In this document: one piece after another, positions 46,450-59,909 of the stretch
How positions within the stretch are numbered: the stretch's first letter is position 1
How the letters are laid out: the number at the start of each line of letters is the position of its first letter
Source: Candidatus Mycobacterium wuenschmannii
GTDB lineage: Bacteria > Actinomycetota > Actinomycetes > Mycobacteriales > Mycobacteriaceae
Assembly: GCF_030252325.1 (NCBI RefSeq)
Contig: NZ_CP126981.1
Location: 620,001 to 684,000, forward strand
Direction of reading: 5' to 3'
Length of the DNA: 64,000 bases
Notes under the pieces: model-generated
What the model was told of the DNA's origin: nothing
What the model saw: only the letters and a program-made list of their open reading frames with translations
Database searches by the model: none
Position numbers and translations under genes: made by a program

Positions 46450-47796
46450 ATGCCTGGAAACGTGCCAGAGAGTCTGTTCGACGTGCCCGACGGGGACGAT
46501 CTCGGCGGGCCGACACTCGGCGGTTCGGCGGGTGCGCCACTCGCGGTGCGAATGCGGCCCGCCAGTCTCGAAGAGGTCGTGGGCCAAGATCACCTGCTGC
46601 AACCCGGATCGCCCTTGCGACGGCTCGTCGAGGGCTCGGGGATGGCATCGGCCATCCTCTACGGCCCGCCCGGCAGTGGGAAGACGACCTTGGCATCGCT
46701 GGTGTCCCAGGCCACTGGGCGCCGCTTCGAGGCACTGTCTGCGCTGTCGGCCGGCGTCAAGGAGGTCCGCGCCGTCATCGACACCGCGCGGCGCGCGGCC
46801 GCGCACGGCGAACAGACGGTCCTGTTCATCGACGAGGTGCACCGGTTCTCCAAGACCCAGCAGGACGCGTTGCTCGCCGCCGTCGAGAATCGGGTCGTGC
46901 TGTTGGTCGCGGCGACCACTGAGAATCCGTCGTTTTCCGTTGTGGCGCCGCTGTTGTCGCGATCGCTGATCCTGCAGCTGCATCCGTTGACCTCCGATGC
47001 GGTGCGCGTGGTTGTCCAGCGCGCGATCGACGATCCGCGCGGGCTCGGCGGTCGGGTGCAGGTGACGCCCGAGGCCGTCGATCTACTGGTTCGGCTGGCG
47101 GCGGGGGACGCCCGGCGGGCGCTGACCGCGTTGGAGGTCGCGGCCGAGGCGGGGGAGCACGTCACCGTCGACGTCATCGAACAGTCGCTGGACAAGGCCG
47201 CGGTTCGCTACGACCGCGATGGCGATCAGCACTACGACGTGATCAGTGCGTTCATCAAATCCGTACGAGGCAGCGACGTGGACGCCGCCCTGCATTACCT
47301 GGCCCGCATGCTGGTCGCCGGCGAAGATCCGCGCTTCGTCGCGCGCCGGCTGATGATCCTGGCCAGTGAGGACATCGGCATGGCCGATCCGCTGGCGTTG
47401 CAGACCGCGGTTGCCGCGGCGCAGACGGTCGCGCTGATCGGGATGCCCGAAGCCAAGCTGACGCTGGCGCATGCCACCATCTATCTCGCGACGGCGCCGA
47501 AGTCGAACGCCGTTACGTCGGCTATTGGGGCGGCGATGGGGGACATCAGTGCGGGTAAGGCGGGCCTGGTGCCACCGCACCTGCGCGACGGGCATTATTC
47601 GGGTGCGGCGACCCTGGGCAACGCCCAAGGCTACAAGTACTCCCATGACGACCCCGATGGGGTTGTGCCACAACAGTATCCGCCCGACGAGCTGGTCGGT
47701 GTCGACTATTATCGCCCGACCGGACGGGGCGCCGAGCGCGACATTGGAACGCGACTGGAGAAGCTACGGGCGATCATCCGCCGCGAACGCCGTTGA
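46450..47796 (+). CDS. rarA: Replication-associated recombination protein RarA/MgsA (AAA+ ATPase)
   Basis: 448 residues, similar in size and place to Rv2559c. Walker [10 protein letters not shown] at about 72-80, Walker [20 protein letters not shown], sensor-1 [10 protein letters not shown], arginine-finger region LLSRSLI, then the RarA/WRNIP1 tetramerisation domain ([41 protein letters not shown]) and the C-terminal YKYSHD...QQYPPDEL...YYRPT. Clamp-loader-related protein acting at stalled replication forks. The ATG at 46450 is used; a GTG at 46462 ([10 protein letters not shown]) is equally plausible. Confidence 0.95.
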
Positions 47797-47817
47797 CCAG
47801 CAGGCGATTCCGCTTAC

Positions 47818-48351
47818 TCAGTCCGGCCTTCCGGGGTACTGGTGATGCTCAGCCACCAGCATTGTTGACGACCATTGTGGGAAACCGGCGATGATGTCGG
47901 CCACCGAGTCGGTCGTGAAGTCCGGAATAGGGCCATCGCCGAGTGCGTCGACGTTGCCCAGATACAGCTCGGCTCGGGCCGCGACGATCGTGGCAGCGTG
48001 GGTACCGCCGGCGGTCCGCAATGTGTAGGCGCCGTCGCTGAATCGTGGCTCCCAGTCTCCCCATCGGGCTTTCCAATCGGTCGAGCCGAGTTGACGGCCG
48101 CCGTCGTCCGACCAGTCGACACTGGCCACGCCGGTGAGAACGGCCAGAGCTGTGTTGTACTCGGGAAAACCGAGCGCGCCGCGCAGGTCTAGCAGCAGGC
48201 CGACGCGACCTCGCTGGGCAGACAGGCGGATGTCGACCAGCTCGGCCTCGTTCAAGGAATCCGATTCGATCAGCGGATTCGCTTGGTCCGTCTGTCGCGA
48301 TGCGACGTCGGGCGTGAAGTGGTAGAGCTGGTCGATCGAGTAGGAACCCAC
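47818..48351 (-). CDS. Hypothetical cytosolic protein
   Basis: 177 residues, no signal peptide, no membrane helix. Acidic, with EAELVDIRLSAQRGRVGLLLDLRGAL in the first third and ELYLGNVDALGDGPIPDFTTDSVADIIAGFPQWSSTMLV near the end; a Trp-rich middle (DWKARWGDWEPRFSDGAYTL). I do not recognise the family; the fold reads as mainly beta. It lies in the same relative position as the Rv2557/Rv2558 pair downstream of the rarA homologue, but I cannot confirm relatedness. Convergent with rarA. Confidence 0.6.
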   Translation of the reverse strand: MGSYSIDQLYHFTPDVASRQTDQANPLIESDSLNEAELVDIRLSAQRGRVGLLLDLRGALGFPEYNTALAVLTGVASVDWSDDGGRQLGSTDWKARWGDWEPRFSDGAYTLRTAGGTHAATIVAARAELYLGNVDALGDGPIPDFTTDSVADIIAGFPQWSSTMLVAEHHQYPGRPD

Positions 48352-48394
48352 GTCCCAATCCTTTCAGCGGCCATGACGATCGCGAGATCTGACG

Positions 48395-48997
48395 TCACAA
48401 CGGGATGTGCCAATACGGGTCGCTCGGCTTAACAGTCTGCCCGGTATGGGGATTCACGGCCTGGCCCGAAATATTTTGGTAGCTCGCATAGCCGGTGGGT
48501 TGCGGATAGGGGCCGCCGGTAACCGGCTCCATGACCCGAATGGTCTCCACGCGTGGGTCCAGGCCTGGCGCGCCCTGGATCGGGTAATTCCATCCCTTGC
48601 CGCTTTTTGCCCGCGTCCCCGGTGCGCCGGGTGGCACGCCCGGAAGATCCTCACCGGTCACCGGGTCTCGCACCGTGACCGGGCGGATTTCGGGCGGTCC
48701 CTTCTGACATGACTTCAGATTGGCGATGATCGTCGCCTTCTCGGCGTTCTGCGCCTCGGCTTCAGCGTTGTAGGCGTTGACCGCAGCCACGTCAGATGCG
48801 TTGGGCGGGTTGGCATTATGCTGATCCACCCGCGCCTTCCAGTCATTGGCGTTTGCCAGCGCCTGCTCGCACGACATCGCCGACGCCACGGGTGCGGCGA
48901 GGACCGGTCCACTCAACATCGAGACAGCAGCGACAATTGCGAGGATCAGCCTTGGCCGCCAGCTAAGCCGAAAGCGCTCTGCCGTAGTCAGATTCAT
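48395..48997 (-). CDS. Hypothetical exported protein
   Basis: 200 residues from the ATG at 48997, chosen because it places a normal basic N-terminus (MNLTTAERFRLSWRPR) before the signal helix LILAIVAAVSMLSGPVLAAPVASA; a Met eight codons earlier would be unusual. The mature part has a short helical region with two Cys (SCEQALANANDWKARVDQHNANPPNA and ANLKSCQKGPPE) that probably pair, followed by a Pro/Gly-rich C-terminus of about 110 residues (VRDPVTGEDLPGVPPGAPG, VNPHTGQTVKPSDPYWHIPL). No known domain. Reads in the same direction as the preceding hypothetical gene. Confidence 0.7.
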   Translation of the reverse strand: MNLTTAERFRLSWRPRLILAIVAAVSMLSGPVLAAPVASAMSCEQALANANDWKARVDQHNANPPNASDVAAVNAYNAEAEAQNAEKATIIANLKSCQKGPPEIRPVTVRDPVTGEDLPGVPPGAPGTRAKSGKGWNYPIQGAPGLDPRVETIRVMEPVTGGPYPQPTGYASYQNISGQAVNPHTGQTVKPSDPYWHIPL

Positions 48998-49200
48998 ATC
49001 GGATACGACGATAGGGCACACGCAGCCGGGGCTAGAACGCTATTTTTCGGGTCTCGCCGCAGGCTCGCCTGTCGTAAGCATCGCCGAGACTTCACGCATG
49101 GCGAGGCATGTTGGCGGCTGAGTTGCCGGCACGCCGAACGTCGTCACCGTTATTGGAAGCCATGCGTCGACATCAGGCAACTCGGGTCGGTGGGCTTGAA

Positions 49201-49216
49201 ATCTGATATATCAGAT
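49201..49216. promoter_or_regulatory. Perfect 16-bp palindrome, candidate operator of the monooxygenase operon
   Basis: ATCTGATATATCAGAT is exactly self-complementary and lies 12 bp before the ATG of the monooxygenase gene, in an AT-rich patch. A symmetric site of this size and position suits a dimeric repressor of the GntR/MarR/TetR type (inference); no regulator gene lies next to the operon. It would block the ribosome-binding or promoter region. Confidence 0.6.
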
Positions 49217-49227
49217 GTTAGACATCA

Positions 49228-50580
49228 ATGATGACTTCCCGAAAGATGGCGCTCGTCGCCTTCATGCAAGCTGGCAGCACGTCGGTGTACGCAGGCTCCT
49301 GGCGGCACCCGGCAACCGAACACGGCTACCTCGACGCCTCGTACTACGCCAAGATCGGCCGGACCCTCGAAGAGGGCTGCTTCGACCTGATGTTCTTCGA
49401 CGACCGGCTGGCCATGCCCGGCATCTACGGCGGCTCGGTCGCCGACGCCGTCAAGTACGGCGCGCGGCCGGTCAAGCTGGACCTGTCCATTGTGTTGGGC
49501 GTGCTCGCGCAGGCCACCTCGCACATCGGGCTGGGCGCGACCGGGTCGACTACCTACTACACGCCGTTCCACATCGCCCGGACCTTCGCCACCCTCGACC
49601 ACCTCTCTCGCGGCCGCGCGGCCTGGAACATCGTCACGTCGGTCAACGACAGCGAGGCGCAAAACTTCGGCCTGGAAACGCATTTGGGCCACGACGCCCG
49701 CTACGACCGCGCCGAGGAATTCCTCGAGGCCACCGTCGGATTGTGGGAGACCTGGGAGGACGACGCGATCCTGCACGACCGGGTCAACGGCATCTACGCC
49801 GACCCGGACAAGGTGCACGAGCTACACCACAACGGCGAGTACTTCTCCGTTCGCGGGCCACTCACCGTGCCGCGTACGCCACAGGGCCGCCCGGTGCTGA
49901 TCCAGGCCGGCTCGTCGGGCCGCGGACGTGAATTCGCTTCGCGCTGGGCTGATTTGATCTTCACCGGCGACCCGGGCATCGAGGTTGCCCGTGATCACTA
50001 CGCCGACCAGAAGGCGCGCATCGGCGCCGCGGGTCGCGACCCGGAGTCGGTTAAGCTCTGTCCGATGGCTTATGCAGTGGTCGGTGAGACCGAGGATCAC
50101 GCCAAGGAACGCGAACAGGTGTTCCTCAATGAGCTGGTGCACCCGATGGCCTCGCTGACCCTGCTGTCGGAGTTGATGAACTACGACTTCGCCCAGCACG
50201 ACCTCGACGACCCGATCACCGACGAGCTGATCGCGAACGTGTCCGGAATCCGCGGTCTGGTGCAGAACCTGCGCGCCCATATCGGCGACACGATCACCCT
50301 GCGTGACCTGGCCGGCCACCGCGCGACCCTGTTGCAGGGCCCGCGCTTCGTCGGCACCGGCAAGCAGGTCGCCGACCAGATGGAGGAGTGGTTCCACGGC
50401 GGAGCCTGCGACGGATTCGTCTTGGCCGCAACGCATCTGCCGGGTGCATTCGAAGACGTGGTGCGCATGGTGGTGCCGGAACTGCAGCGCCGCGGGTTGT
50501 TCCGCGATTCCTATGAAGGGTCGACGCTGCGCGACCATCTCGGACTGCCACGGCCGGTCGGCGCGCCCGCCTACGCATGA
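49228..50580 (+). CDS. LLM-class flavin-dependent monooxygenase (NtaA/SnaA/DszA group)
   Basis: 450 residues. TIM-barrel of the bacterial luciferase superfamily, with the NtaA/SnaA/DszA subgroup pattern: ALVAFMQAGSTSVYAGSWRHP at the N-terminus, GLGATGSTTYYTPFHIARTFATLDHLSRGRAAWNIVTSVNDSEAQNFG, RAEEFLEATVGLWETWEDDAI, HNGEYFSVRGPL and QAGSSGRGREFASRWADLIFTG. Uses FMNH2 (or F420) and O2 to oxidise small S-, N- or polycyclic substrates in related enzymes; the substrate here is unknown. First of three genes, tightly linked (its stop overlaps the CoA-transferase start). Starts at the ATG 49228; an adjacent ATG at 49231 is equivalent. Confidence 0.92.
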   Translation: MMTSRKMALVAFMQAGSTSVYAGSWRHPATEHGYLDASYYAKIGRTLEEGCFDLMFFDDRLAMPGIYGGSVADAVKYGARPVKLDLSIVLGVLAQATSHIGLGATGSTTYYTPFHIARTFATLDHLSRGRAAWNIVTSVNDSEAQNFGLETHLGHDARYDRAEEFLEATVGLWETWEDDAILHDRVNGIYADPDKVHELHHNGEYFSVRGPLTVPRTPQGRPVLIQAGSSGRGREFASRWADLIFTGDPGIEVARDHYADQKARIGAAGRDPESVKLCPMAYAVVGETEDHAKEREQVFLNELVHPMASLTLLSELMNYDFAQHDLDDPITDELIANVSGIRGLVQNLRAHIGDTITLRDLAGHRATLLQGPRFVGTGKQVADQMEEWFHGGACDGFVLAATHLPGAFEDVVRMVVPELQRRGLFRDSYEGSTLRDHLGLPRPVGAPAYA

Positions 50581-51764
50581 TGCTCGAGGGGATCCGGGTT
50601 CTCGACGTCGCGACGCTCGCCGCCGCGCCCCTGGCCGCCACCTACCTCGGCGAATTCGGCGCCGAGGTCATCAAGGTCGAGCAACCGGACGGCGGCGACC
50701 CCATCCGCACCTGGGGCAATCAGGTCGACGGTGTCGGCCTGATGTGGAAGTCGTTGTCGCGCAACAAGAGTTCGATAACCCTCAACCTACGGGTTCCGGA
50801 GGGTCAGGCGCTGCTGCGCCGGTTGGCCGCACACGCCGACGTGGTGATCGTCAACACCCGGCCGGCGACCCTGCGCAAGTGGGGTGTGGACTACGAGGCG
50901 CTGCGGGCGGTCAACGACAAGATCGTGATGCTGCACATCACCGGCTACGGGCTGTCCGGGCCGAAAAGTGAACGGCCGGGCTTCGGCACGCTCGGTGAGG
51001 CGATGAGTGGGTTCGCCAACATCACCGGTGCGGAGGGCGGCCCGCCGACGTTGCCGCCGTTCATGCTTGCCGACGGGGTGGCGTCGCTGAACGCCGCGTA
51101 CGCGGTGATGATGGCGCTGTATCACCGCGACGTGCACGGCGCATCGGGCCAACTGATCGACATCAACCTGATCGACCCGCTGGCTCGACTGCTCGAGCAG
51201 ACACTTCTCGGCTACGACCAACTCGGGCTGGTACCGACCAGGGCGGGCAACCGCTGGGACATCTCTGCGCCGCGCAACACCTACCAGACCTCCGACGGCA
51301 AATGGCTGGCAATGTCGGGCAGCTCACCGGCGTTGGCGCTGAGGGTGTTTCGTGCGATCGGGCGCGCCGACCTGGTCGACGACGCCGACTTCTCCGACCC
51401 GCAGCGTCGTCTCGCGCGGGCCCGCGAGGTCGACCAGGTGGTCGCCGACTGGGTGGCCACCAAGACCCTCGACGAGGCGATGGCCGTGCTCGACGCCGCC
51501 GAAGTTGCCGCCGCGCCGGTATACGACATCACTCAGCTGGTCGCCGACGAGCAGCTCACGCACCGGGAGGTTTTCGTCAAGGTCGCCGATGACGAACTCG
51601 GTGCGATGACGGTGCAGGCCCCGGTGCCGCGGTTCTCCGGCGCGACCGGTCGGGTCGGCCATCTCGGCCCGCGGATCGGTGCGAACAACGTCGAGGTGTA
51701 CGGCGAGCTACTGGGCCTGAGCGCCAACGACATTGACGACCTGCGCGCCCGCGGCGTGCTGTGA
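50577..51764 (+). CDS. Family III CoA-transferase (CaiB/BaiF)
   Basis: 395 residues. LEGIRVLDVATLAAAPLAATYLGEFGAEVIKVEQPDGGDPIRTWG is the family N-terminus; KSSITLNLRVPEGQALLRRLAAHADVVI, GYGLSGPKSERPGFG and HGASGQLIDINLIDPLARLL follow, with the Asp of the LIDINLID block corresponding to the conserved catalytic region. Transfers CoA between carboxylic acids. Translationally coupled to the monooxygenase gene (ATGA overlap) and 14 bp before the lyase gene, which implies a shared pathway in which an oxidised acid is activated as a CoA ester. Confidence 0.93.
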   Translation: MMLEGIRVLDVATLAAAPLAATYLGEFGAEVIKVEQPDGGDPIRTWGNQVDGVGLMWKSLSRNKSSITLNLRVPEGQALLRRLAAHADVVIVNTRPATLRKWGVDYEALRAVNDKIVMLHITGYGLSGPKSERPGFGTLGEAMSGFANITGAEGGPPTLPPFMLADGVASLNAAYAVMMALYHRDVHGASGQLIDINLIDPLARLLEQTLLGYDQLGLVPTRAGNRWDISAPRNTYQTSDGKWLAMSGSSPALALRVFRAIGRADLVDDADFSDPQRRLARAREVDQVVADWVATKTLDEAMAVLDAAEVAAAPVYDITQLVADEQLTHREVFVKVADDELGAMTVQAPVPRFSGATGRVGHLGPRIGANNVEVYGELLGLSANDIDDLRARGVL

Positions 51765-51778
51765 AAGGAATTCAGTAG

Positions 51779-52687
51779 ATGACGTCACTGCTGCGCCGCT
51801 CGGAACTCGCGGTGCCCGCGGCCAACGACAACATGTTCGCCAAGGCCGCCGCATCCGAAGCCGATCTGGTCTTCCTGGACCTCGAGGACGCCACCGCACC
51901 CGCGCACAAGGAGGCGGCGCGCGGCAAGGCCATCGCCGCGCTCAACGACCTCGACTGGGGGCGCACCGCGCGGGCAATCCGGATCAACGGCCTGGACACC
52001 CCGTGGTGCCACGACGACATCGTCGAGGTCGTGACCGGCGCCCGGAACAACCTCGACACCATCATCATCCCGAAAGCGCTTCGCGCACGCGATGTTTGGT
52101 GGGTGGACGTGTTGCTCTCCCAGCTGGAGGCCAAACTCGGCCTCGACCGGCAGATCCGCCTCGAGGTGTTGATCGAGGAGGTCGAGGGCCTGGCCAACGC
52201 CGAGGAGATCGCCGCCGCCAGCCCGCGCCTGGACGCGGTCATCTTCGGCGTCGGCGACTTCTCGCTGTCGCAGGGTGCCCGGGTGGATACTAACTTCGAT
52301 CCACTCGGCGAGTATCCCGGCGACTTCTGGGCCTACGCCCGCAACAAGGTGATCGTCGCCGCCCGGATCGCCGGCATCGACGCCATCGACGCGCCCTACC
52401 CGGACTACGGGAATCTGGAGGGCTACGAGCGCGACGCGCGACGGGCCGCGCTGATGGGCTACACCGGAAAGTGGTGCATCCACCCGAGCCAGATCGAGGT
52501 GGCCAACGGGGTGTACGCGCCGACCGAGGAGGAGATCGCGCTGGCCGAGCGCAACGTCGCGGCCTACCGCGAAGGTGAGCAAAAAGGCCTCGGCGCGGTC
52601 GGAGTCAACGGTGTGCTGGTCGACGCGGCGCACGTGAAGATGGCGCAAGCCACGCTGGCGCGTGCCGCACTGATCGCCAAAGGCTAA
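51779..52687 (+). CDS. CitE/HpcH-type CoA-ester lyase (aldolase family)
   Basis: 302 residues with TIM-barrel aldolase motifs: RRSELAVPAANDNMFAKAAASEADLVFLDLEDATAP (metal-binding LDLEDA), IRINGLDTPW, DTIIIPKAL, LEVLIEEVEGLANAEEIAAASPRL, VIFGVGDFSLSQGA, and GKWCIHPSQIEVANGVY near the C-terminus. Related enzymes cleave citryl-, malyl- or methylmalyl-type CoA esters. As the third gene of the operon it probably splits the CoA ester produced by the CoA-transferase. Convergent with the TIR gene, 11 bp between stops. Confidence 0.93.
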   Translation: MTSLLRRSELAVPAANDNMFAKAAASEADLVFLDLEDATAPAHKEAARGKAIAALNDLDWGRTARAIRINGLDTPWCHDDIVEVVTGARNNLDTIIIPKALRARDVWWVDVLLSQLEAKLGLDRQIRLEVLIEEVEGLANAEEIAAASPRLDAVIFGVGDFSLSQGARVDTNFDPLGEYPGDFWAYARNKVIVAARIAGIDAIDAPYPDYGNLEGYERDARRAALMGYTGKWCIHPSQIEVANGVYAPTEEEIALAERNVAAYREGEQKGLGAVGVNGVLVDAAHVKMAQATLARAALIAKG

Positions 52688-52697
52688 CTGGCCGGGG

Positions 52698-54281
52698 CTA
52701 TTTCGTCCCATTCGGGTCTTTGACCGCGCCGACGATCTGGTCGACGATCCGGTTTGCCTGGTCGGTGATCTCGAAACCACACGCCTTGACGTCGACCACG
52801 TAGTTGGACACCGTGCTCAGCGCCCGCTGGCAGGTGTAGCCGGGATCGCCGACCTTGGTGTAGGTCAGCAGGACCTTCGGTGCCTCACCGGTGGGCGAGT
52901 TGATCGTCCAGGTGTATTTGCGGCGATCGGTGTAGGTGACGGTTGCGGTCTTGCCGCTGCACGCCTTCCACTGATCGGCGGCCTTGGCAACGAAGTTGAA
53001 CGGCTGGTCGGAGTTCGCCGGGAAGATCGCGACGTCCTGATCGACGAACTGGTTCTTGCTCTCGCCGGCCCGCGGCAGCCCGCCGGGCTTCTGCAGCGTC
53101 CGCCAGGCCAGACCCAGTTCACCGCTGTCCTGGTAGGTGCTTGTCAGCCCGGGGTACAGCGCGCCCATGCAGTCCGCCGCCGAGACGTCGATCGTGCTGC
53201 TCTGCTTCATCGCCTGGTTGCCGCGCTCGACGGTCTTCATGTCCGAGGCGCCCATCACCGCATTGATCTCGGTGTCGTTGAGCAGCATCGCGTCCAGCGG
53301 GTTGGCCGCCGGTTTGGTCAGGACCACCTTGAGCGCCACCCCGGCCACGACGGCGACGACGACGCCGGCGATCGCGGCGAAGATCCAGCGGCGCCGCGAC
53401 GGTGGCCGAGTCATACCACTCGGCGGTGGCGGCACCGGCGCGGGCGGTAGGGGAGCGGGCGGCCCCGGCGGCATCGGCTGGGCGGGGAACGACGGCAGCG
53501 ATGGAACCGATTGCAGCGCAGCCGGATCGGCCGTCGCCATCGCCTGCGGAGCCGACATGGTCGGCACGGTCATCGGACCGGAAGTGTGCGCGGTGTTGAA
53601 CGGGACCGTGACCGACGACGTGGCCGGGCCCGCCTCCATGGCGGCCAGGGTGGCATCGATCTCGGTTCGGATCCGCCATGTCACGTCGGGCCGGTCCCGC
53701 AGTTGGCACAGCAGTTGGGTGATGTCCCGGAAGGCGGTCGGATCGTGACGGTCGTCGTCCAGCCGGTCTTTGAGCTCGGTGATCAGCTCGGTCTGCTGAT
53801 GCCGGCTGAGTTCGGGCCGCGAGAGCGCGGCGGCCAGGCGCATCAGGTAGGCGAACGGCACGGGCGGCTCGGGGGGTTGCGGCCAGGGCAGCGGCGGGAT
53901 CTGCGACTGGCGCTGCTGCACCGAGGACAGCAGCCGAAGGGTGCTCTGCTTGTCGGGTTGGCGGAAGTCGAGGATCTGGCGCGCCGCGAGCGGCGTGACG
54001 CGCAGGCTGTCGACCGGACCGATCTGGACCGGCAGGATGGGCCGGCGCAGTGCCTCGGCGTAGTTCAACTCGGCTTGGCACGGCTTGGATGCCAGGGAGT
54101 TGTTGGAGACCGCGACGATGAACACCTCGGAGCGGCGGATCTGCTCGAGGATGGCGTGCCACCACGCCTCGCCGCCGCCCAGCTTGTCGTCCCACCACAC
54201 CTGCTGGCGCGCGCGACGCAGCGATGTCAGGAGTGGCTCGATGAGCGCCCTGTCCTGACTGGCGTAGCTGACGAAGAGCAT
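52698..54281 (-). CDS. TIR-domain protein with membrane helix and PknH-like extracytoplasmic sensor
   Basis: 527 residues. Residues 1-115: TIR domain (LFVSYASQDRALIEPLLTSL box 1; VWWDDKLGGGEAWWHAI; CQAELNYAEAL, with Glu71 at the position of the NADase catalytic Glu). Residues about 145-220: helical linker (RHQQTELITELKDRLDDD). Residues about 225-298: Pro/Ala-rich spacer. Residues about 299-321: one membrane helix. Residues about 326-520: extracytoplasmic domain with Cys371, Cys441, Cys484 and Cys501, matching the PknH-type sensor domain with two disulfides. The TIR is thus cytoplasmic at the N-terminus. It could consume NAD or produce a nucleotide signal in response to an external cue. No Tat or Sec cleavage site; the ATG at 54281 is the first Met. 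Codirectional with, and 66 bp downstream of, the RyR gene. Confidence 0.88.
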   Translation of the reverse strand: MLFVSYASQDRALIEPLLTSLRRARQQVWWDDKLGGGEAWWHAILEQIRRSEVFIVAVSNNSLASKPCQAELNYAEALRRPILPVQIGPVDSLRVTPLAARQILDFRQPDKQSTLRLLSSVQQRQSQIPPLPWPQPPEPPVPFAYLMRLAAALSRPELSRHQQTELITELKDRLDDDRHDPTAFRDITQLLCQLRDRPDVTWRIRTEIDATLAAMEAGPATSSVTVPFNTAHTSGPMTVPTMSAPQAMATADPAALQSVPSLPSFPAQPMPPGPPAPLPPAPVPPPPSGMTRPPSRRRWIFAAIAGVVVAVVAGVALKVVLTKPAANPLDAMLLNDTEINAVMGASDMKTVERGNQAMKQSSTIDVSAADCMGALYPGLTSTYQDSGELGLAWRTLQKPGGLPRAGESKNQFVDQDVAIFPANSDQPFNFVAKAADQWKACSGKTATVTYTDRRKYTWTINSPTGEAPKVLLTYTKVGDPGYTCQRALSTVSNYVVDVKACGFEITDQANRIVDQIVGAVKDPNGTK

Positions 54282-54347
54282 GAATTTTTCCCTGGGGCGT
54301 ACCTAAAATTTTCCGAAGTATAAGGTCCGGTAACGCTGATCACCTGG

Positions 54348-56108
54348 TTAAAGCACGGAATGTGGTGTGTTCGACGTCACTGGGTAGCGCGGCGCGGTCT
54401 CGTCGATGTCGACAATCTGCAGACCGACCGCGGCCAGCATCGCCGGGATCGCGCGGACGAAGTTGGTGTCCCATTCGGCGATATCGCCGGGCAACTCGTG
54501 CCACGGGACGAAATGCGGGTCGGTCTTGACCCCGGCGTCCATCTTCTCCTGCGCCCAGCGGTCGTGCTCCATGATGCTCAGCCTGGTGAGTTCCTCGTCG
54601 GTGAAGGTGAATTCCTTTGCCTGCCAATCACGTAGCGGCGTGATCTCGCAGCCGATGCTGCGCAGCTTGACCGCGATGTGGCGGGCCTGGGCGCGGTTGG
54701 ACTTCTTCAGCGACTCGCTCAGCGCCGACCACAACGGCACCGACGCGCCGCCGTCGGGCTGCATCAGTCGGTAGCGGCGGTGGATCTCGTGCGCGATCGC
54801 TTCGAAGGAACCGCCCTCGACCAGTTCCACGGTGCAGGTCTCCTGCAGCATCTTGACGACGGCGAGGTTGGCGCTGGGCGGCGTCGTCGAGTGCTGGAAC
54901 AGGTCGGCGACACCGTAGGCCCGCCACAGCGCGGCCACCACCGGCACGGCCGGGTCGAGCGCGTGCCGCAGTTTCAGGGCCGTCTCGACCGACCGCTCGT
55001 CGTGTTGCGCGGTCACGTAGGCGTGGGTGACGGGCTCGCCGCCGAGGCGCGCGAGGTCGCGGACCGACAGCGAATGGCTGGTGAAGGTGCAGACCTGCTC
55101 GAGGGCCGGGTGGTCGTCGAGCAGCGCGGCAATCCGCTCGCCGGCGTGCTCGCCGACGACGGTGACCGGCAGCGGCGTCGAGGTATCGGTGCGCTTGTCG
55201 TTCCAGATCCGGGCCGCGTGCAGGATCAGCTCGGACCCGAGGGTGTCGAGGTGGGCGACCAGGATGTGCGGCCGGGCGCTGGTGGTGAAGGGGTAGCGGT
55301 CCAGCAGCAGGCGGGCGCCGATCTCGTCGGTGTTGAAGAAGTCCAGGGCCGTCTGGTCGTCGCCGTGGTTGGACTCCTCGATGCGCAGGAAGACGCACAG
55401 GCTCGGGTCGCTCACCCGTGCCAGGCATTGCAACCGTCGCTTGTTGTTCACCAGTCGCCGAGCCCGCGTGATGATTTCGGTGTTCACCACGCTGTCGGGG
55501 GTGACGGCCAACAGTCGGGAGGCGCGCTGGACACCGGCCGCCTCCAGCGTCGACTTCAATTGCGCGTCACCGACGATCACCGGATAGCCCCAATCGCGGC
55601 AGGCCTCGATGCGCGGGTTGTCCGGGTCCGCCTCGATCACGATCGCCTTATAGCCGGCCAGTCGTAGTTGGCGCAGGAACTCGAAGCCGACGTAACCCAG
55701 CCCGCACAGCACGACGTGGTTGCGCCGCAACGGGATGAGCATCTGCTGTACCCGGTCGTGCAGCAGCGAGATCAGCGCGATCAGCGCCGCCCACCCCGCG
55801 ACGATCGGCGCGAGGTAGCGGGCGATGTCCAACGCGTAGCCGACGTGCGTCTCGGGTTGCGGGGCGGCGTGCAGCAGGAACAGCTTGGCGGCGCCGTAGA
55901 TCGCGTCCGACAGCGAATGGTGGCCGCCGCCCTCCGGCACGTAGGAGAAGTAACCCCACATTCCCAGCAGGAAAGCCAGGATGCCGGCCGGTGCGAGGAC
56001 CCAGTACCAGCGAGGGTTGGTCAGGAAGGCCAAGATCTTCTGTTGAAACGTGCGGGGCGGCGCGTCCTGGCCGCTCGTGCTCGATGCGCTCAACGCGTCT
56101 CCACCCAT
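54348..56108 (-). CDS. Two-helix membrane protein with TrkA-N and C-terminal RyR domains
   Basis: 586 residues from the ATG at 56108; more upstream codons are open but overlap the divergent yjbQ promoter side. Residues about 30-55 and 95-125 are membrane helices, joined by a loop (SLSDAIYGAAKLFLLHAAP). The loop sits where an ion-channel pore helix would be but has no T-x-G-Y-G filter. About 140-235 is a Rossmann TrkA-N domain (VVLCGLGYVGFEFLRQL, GxGxxG; IEADP). A second, degenerate NAD-type region follows (VVGEHAGERIAALL). The C-terminal segment IMEHDRWAQEKMDAGVKTDPHFVPWHELPGDIAEWDTNFVRAIPAML is a prokaryotic RyR domain. In published comparative work RyR domains occur with TIR and other nucleotide-signalling domains in conflict systems (recollection). 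Probably a sensor or effector partner of the TIR protein. Confidence 0.88.
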   Translation of the reverse strand: MGGDALSASSTSGQDAPPRTFQQKILAFLTNPRWYWVLAPAGILAFLLGMWGYFSYVPEGGGHHSLSDAIYGAAKLFLLHAAPQPETHVGYALDIARYLAPIVAGWAALIALISLLHDRVQQMLIPLRRNHVVLCGLGYVGFEFLRQLRLAGYKAIVIEADPDNPRIEACRDWGYPVIVGDAQLKSTLEAAGVQRASRLLAVTPDSVVNTEIITRARRLVNNKRRLQCLARVSDPSLCVFLRIEESNHGDDQTALDFFNTDEIGARLLLDRYPFTTSARPHILVAHLDTLGSELILHAARIWNDKRTDTSTPLPVTVVGEHAGERIAALLDDHPALEQVCTFTSHSLSVRDLARLGGEPVTHAYVTAQHDERSVETALKLRHALDPAVPVVAALWRAYGVADLFQHSTTPPSANLAVVKMLQETCTVELVEGGSFEAIAHEIHRRYRLMQPDGGASVPLWSALSESLKKSNRAQARHIAVKLRSIGCEITPLRDWQAKEFTFTDEELTRLSIMEHDRWAQEKMDAGVKTDPHFVPWHELPGDIAEWDTNFVRAIPAMLAAVGLQIVDIDETAPRYPVTSNTPHSVL

Positions 56109-56210
56109 TCCACCCCGGGACTCGAAGTCACCCCGCCTGTTTCGCCGAGGATCGTACCTTGACCTTTGCTGGACTCGGCACGTCAAACCGCAGATCCGTA
56201 GGCTGGTCGA

Positions 56211-56612
56211 ATGAATTCGGATGTGCTGGATGTGGACACCGCGCGTCGCCGCATCGTCGACGTGACCGACTCCGTGCGGGCCTTCTGTTCTCCACGCGGC
56301 GACGGGCTGTGCAACATCTTCGTCCCGCACGCGACGGCCGGGGTCGCGATCATCGAGACGGGCGCGGGATCCGACGACGACCTGATCGACACCCTGGAGC
56401 GATTACTGCCCCGCGACGACCGCTACCGGCACGCACACGGGTCGTTCGGCCACGGCGCCGACCATGTGATGCCCGCTATCGTCGCGCCGTCGATCACGGT
56501 GCCGGTGCAGGCGGGCGAGCCGTTGCTGGGCACCTGGCAGAGCGTCGTGTTGGTCGACCTGAACCGCGACAACCCGCGGCGTTCGGTCCGGCTGTCGTTC
56601 GTACAGGGCTAG
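56211..56612 (+). CDS. YjbQ/UPF0047 family protein
   Basis: 133 residues, the family's normal length (Rv2556c counterpart). Key pattern: CNIFVPHATAGVAIIETGAGSDDDLIDTLERLLPRDDRYRHAHGSFGHGADHVMPAIVAPSITVPVQAGEPLLGTWQSVVLVDLN; the His cluster (PHATAGV, HAHGSFGHGADH) probably binds metal. Family members were reported to act in thiamine phosphate synthesis from HMP-PP in some bacteria, but the native role here is not clear. Stands upstream of alaS with a 96-bp gap and divergent from the TrkA-N/RyR gene. Confidence 0.92.
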   Translation: MNSDVLDVDTARRRIVDVTDSVRAFCSPRGDGLCNIFVPHATAGVAIIETGAGSDDDLIDTLERLLPRDDRYRHAHGSFGHGADHVMPAIVAPSITVPVQAGEPLLGTWQSVVLVDLNRDNPRRSVRLSFVQG

Positions 56613-56708
56613 GCGCACTCGTCGGATGTCCGAGGCGGTGAACCGGCCCGGTACTGTGGTGCGGTCGAAAGAGGCTGGTGACAGCCAGGCTGAACAGGAA
56701 GTTGGGAA

Positions 56709-59411
56709 GTGCAGACACACGAGATCAGGAAGAGGTTCCTCGATCATTTCGTGACGGCGGGCCACACCGAGGTGCCGAGCGCGTCGGTGATCCTCGACGA
56801 CCCCAACCTGCTATTCGTCAACGCCGGCATGGTGCAGTTCGTCCCGTTCTTCCTCGGCCAGCGCACGCCGCCGTACGCGACCGCGACCAGCATCCAGAAA
56901 TGCATCCGCACGCCCGACATCGACGAGGTCGGGATCACCACCCGGCACAACACCTTCTTCCAGATGGCCGGCAACTTCTCGTTCGGCGATTACTTCAAGC
57001 GCGAAGCCATCCAGCTGGCCTGGAGCCTGCTGACCAATCCGGTCGACGACGGCGGCTACGGCTTCGACCCGGAAAGACTCTGGGCCACCGTCTATTTCGA
57101 CGATGACGAGGCCATCGAGCTGTGGCGTGAGATCGCCGGCCTGCCGGTCGAGCGCATCCAGCGGCGCGGGATGGCCGACAACTACTGGTCGATGGGGATC
57201 CCCGGGCCGTGTGGACCGTCGTCGGAGATTTACTACGACCGGGGTCCGGATTTCGGCGTCGACGGCGGCCCCGAGGCCAACGAGGACCGCTACATCGAGA
57301 TCTGGAATCTCGTGTTCATGCAGAACGAGCGCGGCGAGGGAACCAGCAAGGACGACTTCGAGATCCTGGGGCCGTTGCCGCGCAAGAACATTGACACCGG
57401 CATGGGCATCGAGCGGGTCGCGTTTCTGCTGCAGGACGTGGCCAACGTCTACGAGACCGATCTGCTGCGCCCGGTCATCGACGTGGTTGTCAGCCGATCT
57501 CCCCGCGGCTACAACGTCGGCAATCACGCCGACGACGTGCGCTACCGCATCATCGCCGACCACAGCCGCACCGCGGCCATCCTGATTGCCGACGGCGTCA
57601 CCCCCGGCAACGACGGACGCGGCTACGTGCTGCGCCGGTTGCTGCGGCGCGTCATCCGGTCGGCCAAACTGCTCGAGATCGACGGCCCGATCGTCAGCGA
57701 GCTGATGGCCACGGTCCGCGACGCGATGGGCCCGTCCTACCCCGAGCTGGTCGCCGACTTCGACCGGATCAAACGCATCGCGGTCGCCGAGGAGACGGCG
57801 TTCAACCGGACGCTGCAATCAGGCTCGCGGCTCTTCGAAGAGGCGGCCGGCGCCACCAAGGCCGCCGGCGCGAGCGTGCTGTCCGGGTCGGACGCCTTCA
57901 CGTTGCACGACACCTACGGGTTCCCGATCGAGCTCACCCTCGAGATGGCCGCCGAGGCGGATCTGAAGGTCGATGAGCTCGGCTTCCGCGAGCTGATGTC
58001 CGAGCAGCGCCGCCGCGCGAAGGCCGATGCGGCGGCCCGCAAGCATGCCCATGCCGACCTGACCGCCTACCGCGAACTGGTAGACGCCGGGCCGACCGAA
58101 TTCACCGGTTTCGACGAATTGATCTCGCAGGCAAAGATTCTGGGGATCTTCGTCGACGGTAAACGGGTGCCCGTCGTGTCGCACGGTACCGAAGAGGCGG
58201 CTGGGTCCGATCGCGTCGAACTCGTGCTGGACCGCACCCCTCTCTACGCCGAGTCCGGTGGGCAGGTGGCCGACGCGGGAACCATCAACGGCACCGGATC
58301 CAGCGAGACCGCCCGCGCCGCCGTCACCGACGTGCAGAAGATCGCGAAAACCCTGTGGGTGCATCGCGTCAACGTGGAGTCGGGGGAGTTCGTCGAGGGT
58401 GACACGGTCGTCGCGGCCGTGGACCCCGACTGGCGCAAAGGTGCCACACAGGGCCACTCCGGCACCCACATGGTGCACGCTGCGCTGCGACAGGTGTTGG
58501 GCCCCAATGCCGTTCAGGCCGGGTCGTTGAACCGGCCGGGTTATCTGCGATTCGACTTCAACAGCCAGGGCGCGCTGAGCCCCGAGCAACTCAGCCAGGT
58601 CGAGGAAGTCACCAACGAGGCGGTGCAGGCCGACCACGAGGTACACACCTTCACCGAAAAGCTGGAAAAGGCCAAAGCGATGGGCGCGATGGCCATGTTC
58701 GGCGAGTCCTACCCGGACGAGGTGCGCGTCGTCGAGATCGGCGGGCCGTTCTCGCTCGAACTGTGTGGTGGCACCCACGTGCACAACTCGGCGCAGATCG
58801 GGCCGGTGACGATTCTCGGCGAGTCATCGGTGGGTTCCGGCGTGCGCCGGGTGGAGGCCTACGTCGGACTGGAGTCGTACAAGCACCTGGCCAAGGAGCG
58901 TGCGCTGATGGCGGGCCTGGCGTCGTCGCTCAAGGTGCCCTCCGACGAGGTGCCGGCCCGGGTCGCGAATCTTGTCGAGCGACTGAAGGTCGCGGAAAAG
59001 GAAATCGAACGCAACCGGCTGGCGAACGCTCGGGCAGCTGCGGCAAACGCCGCCGCCGGGGCTCAGCACGTCGGTAACGTCCGTCTGGTGGCGCAGCGAA
59101 TGTCGGCCGGCATGACGGCCGCCGATCTGCGGACGCTGGTGGGTGACATCCGGGGCAAGCTCGGCAACGACCCCGCCGTCGTCGCGCTGATCGCGGAGGC
59201 CGAAGGCGGCAGCGTCCCCTACGCCGTCGCCGCCAATGCGGCAGCCCAGGATCTCGGCCTGCGCGCCAACGACTTGGTCAAGCAACTCGCGGCAGCCGTC
59301 GACGGAAGAGGTGGCGGCAAGGCCGATCTCGCGCAGGGCTCGGGCAAGGACGCCGCGGGCATCGATGCCGCGCTCGACGCGCTGCGGGCCGAGATCTCCA
59401 GGGCCGGCTGA
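56709..59411 (+). CDS. alaS: Alanyl-tRNA synthetase
   Basis: 900 residues, GTG start at 56709. Class II catalytic core with [59 protein letters not shown] and [11 protein letters not shown]; the editing domain has [12 protein letters not shown] and [13 protein letters not shown], whose HxxxH and Cys/His residues bind zinc; the C-terminal oligomerisation domain ends in a Gly-rich [22 protein letters not shown]. Cotranscribed with ruvX, whose GTG follows the alaS stop directly. Confidence 0.97.
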
Positions 59412-59909
59412 GTGGACTCGTCGCATCGCCTGCCGGACCGGCCCGGTGGGGACGACCCCGGACCGGGACGACGACTCGGCATCGACGTGGGCAGCGTGCG
59501 GATCGGCGTCGCTGCCAGCGACCCCGACGGCATTCTCGCCACGCCGGTTGAGACGGTGCGCCGCGACCGGACCACAAGACACCTGCGCCGGCTGGTCGAG
59601 CTGGTGACGGAGAACCAGGCCGTCGAGGTCGTGGTCGGGCTGCCCCGAACCCTGGCCGACCGCACCGGCCCGGCGGCGCTGGACGCCATCGAGGTGGCGG
59701 ACGCGCTGGCCGGCAAGATCGCGCCGGTCCCGGTGCGGATGGCCGACGAGCGATTGACGACGGTCAGTGCCCAGCGCTCCCTGCGCCAAGCCGGGGTGCG
59801 GGCGAAGGGTCAGCGTAGGGTCATCGACCAGGTGGCGGCCGTGGCGATCCTGCAGGGTTGGCTCGATGAACGCCGCGCCATGCTGCCCGGGGAGGTCAAC
59901 GGTGTCTGA
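59412..59909 (+). CDS. ruvX: Holliday junction resolvase-like protein RuvX/YqgF
   Basis: 165 residues. RNase H-like fold: [27 protein letters not shown] (first Asp, metal ligand), [19 protein letters not shown], and [17 protein letters not shown] with the second-ligand DER. Conserved roles are Holliday-junction or rRNA processing. The GTG start at 59412 abuts the alaS stop. Its stop overlaps the mltG start. Confidence 0.94.

Follow-up and report, generated by a model that had tools for sequence, protein, structure and literature searches.

A TIR protein carrying a catalytic-type Glu is linked genetically to a membrane protein in which two transmembrane (TM) helices and tandem RCK domains are combined with a C-terminal RyR domain, and this linkage recurs. 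The pair analyzed here stems from Candidatus Mycobacterium wuenschmannii, where it lies in a stretch of 64,000 nucleotides (contig NZ_CP126981.1, positions 620,001 to 684,000; in the following "the window"). We consider it probable that both proteins form a two-component signalling system in which the TIR domain makes an NAD-derived signal, the RyR tail reads it and the membrane helices respond. The two kinds of gene are associated so frequently that they appear to represent a signalling or defence system not yet described.

As claimed in a sequence-only reading of the same DNA, the gene for a TIR/PknH-like protein and that for a TrkA-N membrane protein both reside on the minus strand and are separated by 66 bp. 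The two genes and their parts are:

52698..54281, minus strand: TIR–TM–PknH_C protein of 527 amino acids (ATG at 54281, stop at 52698)
53946..54275, minus strand: TIR domain with candidate catalytic Glu71 (TIR_2 E 2.4e-20, residues 3-112; Cat1 alignment)
53301..53393, minus strand: transmembrane helix, residues 297-327, Arg-rich on the TIR side (hydropathy and sequence)
52731..53309, minus strand: PknH_C extracytoplasmic sensor-like domain with four Cys (PknH_C E 4.6e-37, residues 325-517; 4esq E 3.7e-34)
54348..56108, minus strand: membrane protein of 586 amino acids with two TM helices, tandem RCK (TrkA-N) and C-terminal RyR (ATG at 56108, stop at 54348)
55941..56012, minus strand: first TM helix, residues 33-56 (hydropathy; predicted model with a pLDDT of 58-67, i.e. 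low confidence)
55749..55826, minus strand: second TM helix, residues 95-120 (hydropathy and predicted model)
55398..55715, minus strand: first RCK/TrkA_N Rossmann domain, residues 132-237, with a GLGYVG motif (Pfam E 1.4e-17; structure matches)
54837..55271, minus strand: second Rossmann (RCK2-like) part, residues 280-424 (predicted model; structure matches)
54399..54821, minus strand: RyR (Repeat12) domain, residues 430-570, with Q474, H515, W518 and D547 kept (weak Pfam match, phmmer, alignment, fold match)

The architecture proposed earlier for the TIR protein, i.e. a TIR domain, a membrane helix and a four-Cys PknH-like sensor, is borne out by these matches. The protein has a single hydrophobic helix, and the four Cys residues C-terminal to it (371, 441, 484 and 501) align with those of the solved PknH sensor structure 4esq. 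Proteins of the PknH family share the PknH_C domain with its four aligned Cys but differ in that the sensor is joined to a Ser/Thr kinase there and to a TIR domain here. The candidate catalytic Glu of the TIR domain, whose absence or misalignment would have counted against the proposal, is present: it is residue 71, resides inside a CQAEL motif and is kept in 83 of 83 TIR matches, some of which represent one genome under two locus ids.

Conserved neighbourhood and co-occurrence

The occurrence of both families was followed in a sample of 198 genomes of the genus (genomes are given as G, loci as L numbers). Long TrkA-RyR proteins are encoded in 13 of them. A second RyR membrane family, which we term c2, comprises proteins of about 780 amino acids with RyR and a C-terminal PGDYG, hydrophobic N-terminal helices and about 25% identity over the RCK part (for example L069:8865-11183); matches to it, some of them partial, are present in 71 genomes. 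In G081 and G043 the PGDYG part of c2 matches separately, about 6 kb away, and in G121 it was found alone. A solo RyR match was obtained in two genomes. A TIR_2 domain is encoded in 74 of the 77 genomes with an RyR membrane or solo RyR gene versus 26 of the 121 others (Fisher 7e-28, kinship ignored). In the three RyR-bearing genomes lacking a TIR match (G068, G089 and G115), the c2 matches are all partial and two of these contain stops; next to the partial c2 of G068 (L163), a short stretch resembling TIR is picked up by our own TIR profile. Genomes G075 and G115, both 3.3 Mb in size, feature c2 matches with several in-frame stops, and the TIR match is marginal in the former and absent in the latter.

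Conservation of the neighbourhood itself was assessed with the 150 best TIR matches as TIR places, weaker ones being left out, and with 86 places matching PF02026, which include three doubtful weak ones (G172, G063 and G081:C29) and exclude the window's own copy. Among these listed matches, 72 of the 86 RyR places are situated within 10 kb of a TIR_2 domain, while the same holds for none of 130 TrkA_N places (the best-scoring matches listed) and for none of the 74 that stem from genomes with a listed TIR. By our count, the control set omits 20 listed TrkA_N rows, all from genomes without a TIR_2 match, which therefore could not have counted. The distances are conservative because weaker TIR matches are not in the list: two RyR places of G043 lie 62-65 kb from a listed TIR, yet in L030 the TIR gene is found two genes from TrkA-RyR. 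The expected conserved linkage of the two families is thus present.

TIR partners of the RyR proteins

Among 27 TrkA-RyR genomes, two of which have identical proteins, the fetched stretch contains a TIR gene in 24, with 17 TIR–PknH and seven other TIR genes. The TIR–PknH/TrkA-RyR pairs are arranged on the same strand, divergently or convergently, with two changes of orientation. Near TrkA-RyR we also found TIR_2–nSTAND1 with WD40 (L027, L028 and L030; split over two frames in L025), TIR_2–nSTAND1 (L089, where the scan covers the non-WD40 part), TIR_2 with WD40 (L088) and TIR_2 (L031). In the best tree the TIR–PknH pairs fall into two clades of 12 and five, and two changes are counted for PknH versus other TIR and four with three partner states. 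Two separate origins of the TIR–PknH pairing are seen on the best trees; we do not claim them because the approximately unbiased (AU) test does not reject a single clade (p 0.137).

In fetched TIR-PknH loci without TrkA-RyR, c2 adjoins in 17 of 20. Flanking gene families are partly common to L020-L022 (TIR-PknH and TrkA-RyR) and L054-L057 (TIR-PknH and c2). Conversely, 18 of 20 fetched c2 loci without TIR-PknH contain another TIR according to our own profile, 17 of them above the Pfam cut-off; the seeds of this profile included L031, L088, L103 and L106, and these four were checked with Pfam. TIR_2–nSTAND1 is found near c2 in 12 of the 20 loci (first 650 residues scanned), TIR_2 plus WD40 in L134 and L135 and TIR_2 in L140. 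A WD40 gene is present in L131, where the TIR is known from the genome TIR_2 search, and L139 contains a sub-cut-off TIR only, with a strong TIR just outside the fetched stretch. A TIR_2–DeoRC fusion (DeoR C-terminal sensor) near c2 in L138 (10689-12125) adds one more kind of input. The PknH sensor, which had been put forward as the input domain, is present in the window, but as an essential input it is rejected as a general rule, since TIR-nSTAND1(-WD40) or other TIR proteins occur near the same kinds of RyR partners. The constant part is therefore TIR plus RyR membrane protein.

That the genes are chance neighbours or merely share an inherited order without any functional link appears highly improbable to us. 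The species are related, kinship is ignored in the Fisher test and a single origin of the TIR-PknH pairing is not rejected, all of which would fit such an explanation, but it is at odds with three orientations, with different TIR partners and slots, with occurrences in other phyla and, for chance neighbourhood mainly, with the TrkA_N control among the matches listed (0 of 130 versus 72 of 86).

Occurrence outside the genus

In a contig scan and a search of the phylum, TIR_2 genes were seen to neighbour RyR proteins in Phycisphaeraceae (L103) and in an unclassified bacterium (L106), which also has a SIR2-like gene. A SIR2-like gene is likewise located beside the RyR protein in L102, and DUF4062 genes adjoin RyR proteins in L101 and L155. 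In other actinobacteria (L151 and L157), TIR_2 is situated at most about 6 kb from an RyR protein. The phylum search returned matches in only nine of 296 genomes. Three full-length matches were obtained outside the genus; a TIR is in reach for L151, and L152 and L153 are located on short contigs. No TIR was found in L097-L102, L104, L105 and L107-L119. L099 features two genes of the TrkA-RyR type and a neighbour gene without a Pfam family at E 0.01.

The RyR domain and its ligand site

The window domain is an RyR domain despite a sub-cut-off score. This is evident from a weak phmmer match to an RyR1 chimera (E 0.006), from the Repeat12 fold detected by structure match, and from relatives (L021, L024 and L030) that show 42-64% identity over the domain and reach 34.0, 45.8 and 41.4 bits with PF02026. 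The copy in the window scores 14.9 bits (E 0.033) as compared with a Pfam cut-off of 27.4, and genome-wide PF02026 searches at E 0.001 and E 0.01 did not report it. Its low score goes along with an in-frame loss of about ten residues in one loop. The RyR homology stated in the sequence-only reading consequently holds via relatives and fold and not via the Pfam score of the window copy taken alone. For a stand-alone RyR gene of this kind, matches were obtained to the animal RyR1, RyR2 and RyR3 chains (best of each at E <= 1.2e-12). Animal ryanodine receptors differ from the window protein in pore and architecture, and the latter is very much smaller.

A phage protein with an RyR domain, RyDEP, has been described in a 2026 preprint to cleave 2'/3'cADPR, isomers of cyclic ADP-ribose (cADPR). 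These were bound by six of eight tested phage homologues, and those tested other than RyDEP did not cleave; H75, W78, H100 and D117 of RyDEP contact the ligand and Q54 is among the mutated residues (PMC13232231). We took the RyDEP sequence from the phage record (mycobacteriophage DyoEdafos gp78) and aligned it with the RyR rows. The window protein shares the RyR/Repeat12 domain and four of these five residues, Q54, H75, W78 and D117 corresponding to 474, 515, 518 and 547, while H100 is replaced by D and one loop is shortened. The H, W and D residues are kept in eight mycobacterial TrkA-RyR rows and in both solo RyR rows of the alignment. In c2, H75, W78 and H100 are kept in four of four rows and D117 in three of four. 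RyDEP differs in that it is encoded by a phage, stands free and clears signals of the host, whereas the RyR domain in the window forms the C-terminal end of a membrane protein of the host itself.

The membrane protein

Foldseek identified GsuK as the top match for the model of the membrane protein, and VIA matches to TrkA and GsuK extend as far as residue 433. With two TM helices, modelled at low confidence, and a tandem RCK gating-ring fold, the protein has a 2TM-RCK architecture resembling that of GsuK, other 2TM-RCK potassium channels and the CASTOR/DMI1 gating rings. It differs from GsuK and other 2TM-RCK channels by its RyR tail and its TIR partner, and mycobacterial members lack a K+ filter: a T-x-G-Y-G selectivity filter was not found between the helices of the window protein and is absent from all 13 aligned mycobacterial rows. 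Such a filter is present in the distant relative L096. The respective gene (L096:9761-11485) encodes an RCK-RyR protein with TVGYGD and belongs to a metagenome-assembled genome labelled Bifidobacterium breve, a label that looks doubtful.

Proposed mechanism

TIR domains of other bacteria convert NAD into signal molecules. For catalysis, ligand, gating and outcome of the TIR/RyR system we infer the following course. The TIR domain would be switched on by a cue, which would arise at the cell envelope for the version with PknH_C and in the cytoplasm for that with nSTAND-WD40, and would then convert NAD+ into an ADP-ribose-type signal, i.e. a cADPR isomer or a relative thereof. The signal would bind to the RyR domain, the gating ring would change its state, the membrane helices would open or perturb the membrane, and growth would stop or infection be halted. 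The idea that a TIR product is read by RyR becomes more concrete because phage RyR proteins cleave or bind 2'/3'cADPR (PMC13232231). In a more specific version, a TIR-made cADPR isomer would directly gate an RyR-tailed ion channel, amounting to a bacterial TIR-to-ryanodine-receptor pathway; we put this forward tentatively and with some doubt.

A number of observations weigh against the proposed system. For 14 of the 86 RyR places none of the listed TIR matches lies within 10 kb, an RyR gene of the kinds considered is missing from 26 of the 100 genomes with a TIR, and many distant relatives show no such neighbour. No TIR is found near three of the 27 TrkA-RyR genes (L029, L081 and L026, the last at a contig end); the genome with L029, G121, has TIR genes elsewhere. 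Three of the 20 TIR-PknH loci (L058, L059 and L066) are without c2, and a single clade of TIR–PknH pairs is compatible with the AU test. The window pair sits amid housekeeping genes with no visible defence island. At the ligand site, the position of the phosphate-binding H100 of RyDEP is occupied by D in the window protein as well as in L020 and L021, and the remaining mycobacterial TrkA-RyR rows and the solo RyR rows have T or S there; in the five distant rows, H and W are missing from L102 and D from L096. The TM region was modelled with low confidence, and the mycobacterial members have no K+ filter, which leaves ion conduction by them hypothetical. Finally, since RyR and RCK domains of other proteins bind ATP/ADP or NAD, something other than a TIR product may serve as the ligand.

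The latter point leads to an NAD-status switch, in which TIR would lower NAD+ (or raise ADP-ribose/ADP), the RCK part would read the change and RyR would bind ordinary adenine nucleotides as in animals. GsuK is activated by ADP and NAD+ (PMC3510474), structures of RyR3 Repeat12 have been solved with ADP, AMP-PCP and ATP, and the GLGYVG Rossmann motif of the window protein is intact. We nevertheless deem this explanation unlikely: among the matches listed TIR tracks with RyR and not with TrkA_N as such, and solo RyR genes occur beside these genes.

The RyR domain could also be an off-switch that hydrolyses the TIR signal in the manner of RyDEP, thereby limiting or ending signalling. RyDEP is a glycosidase (PMC13232231), and the window protein retains the equivalents of its catalytic residues H75 and D117. 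On the other hand, no cleavage was reported for the remaining phage homologues that were tested (PMC13232231), and an RyR domain joined to a gating ring and TM helices would rather be expected of a receptor, which makes an off-switch distinctly improbable in our estimation.

TIR domains can act as adaptors. A non-enzymatic scaffold, in which TIR would produce no signal but act by direct contact with the membrane protein, would moreover agree with TIR-PknH itself being membrane bound. We regard it as distinctly improbable, given the catalytic-type Glu in all 83 TIR matches and the combination of several TIR architectures with one partner family, which is better explained by a diffusible signal than by one fixed interface. 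The reading that a TIR-made, NAD-derived signal is perceived by the RyR tail remains the probable one.

Relation to Thoeris and significance

Thoeris, consisting of the TIR protein ThsB and a ThsA effector of the SIR2-SLOG or TM-macro type, likewise places a TIR gene beside an effector with a domain for an ADP-ribose-type ligand, and the TM-macro effector is a membrane protein with two TM helices as is the protein studied here (PMC11204291). Like Thoeris, the pair includes a TIR protein with a catalytic-type Glu, and the ThsB models of PADLOC match this protein weakly (best 8e-6). The effector is an RCK-RyR (TrkA_N plus RyR) protein and neither SIR2-SLOG nor TM-macro, and no PADLOC model matches it (0 families). 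The TIR proteins differ as well in carrying PknH_C or nSTAND-WD40 input. Because the effector is not ThsA, we do not class the pair as Thoeris. By analogy, we propose that it may work like Thoeris with an RyR-tailed RCK membrane protein in place of ThsA. Prokaryotic RyR domains have reportedly been linked to nucleotide-centric conflict systems by Burroughs et al. 2015, which was outside the coverage of our literature search; within that coverage no description of a TIR plus RyR membrane-protein pair was found, in line with the sequence-only reading, to which no described system with this pair was known.

With this pair, a specific protein can be named as a candidate for the mycobacterial receptor of TIR signals; in its excerpted part, the preprint on RyDEP names no host receptor for the signals that this protein destroys (PMC13232231). 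The relation between cADPR and ryanodine receptors, a long-standing question, could also be tested here in a bacterial system of just two genes. That a single output module (RyR–RCK) is found together with several TIR sensors is of use for the detection and classification of similar systems in other phyla. If a TIR product indeed gates an RyR channel, the pair would add another type to Thoeris-like immunity, and RyDEP, the phage counter-protein, would have a native target in mycobacteria. The pathway would then also be the prokaryotic equivalent of animal cADPR-ryanodine receptor signalling and perhaps its ancestor.

Genomic surroundings and additional genes

Neither a sigma-70-type promoter nor a terminator was found in the intergenic region and its flanks (54200-54450), and co-transcription of the pair is possible. 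The genes scanned around it (window 46450-59909) encode an MgsA/RarA-like AAA ATPase, luciferase-like, CoA-transferase, HpcH/HpaI and UPF0047 proteins, a class-II (Ala-type) tRNA synthetase and RuvX. These are housekeeping-type genes, and a defence island setting thus finds no support.

RyR-type loci without a TIR found nearby are L029/L092, L081, L026/L094, L122, L129 and L033. In L066 (7476-10490), the TIR-PknH gene adjoins a gene for a Ser/Thr protein kinase instead of an RyR gene. In three actinobacterial genomes (L155, L158 and L159), a protein of 581 amino acids is encoded beside one of about 1,400 amino acids; the RyR domain was confirmed in L159, and the large protein of L155, the one scanned, contains DUF4062, NACHT-like and WD40 domains. 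Stand-alone RyR genes for proteins of about 130-200 amino acids are located beside c2 or TrkA-RyR in L032 (4351-4833), L033 (8358-8816), L030 and L031 and possibly encode a signal sponge or a hydrolase subunit. In L030 (7110-9884), a gene for an AAA plus M41 (FtsH-like) protease separates the TIR-nSTAND1-WD40 gene from the RyR genes.

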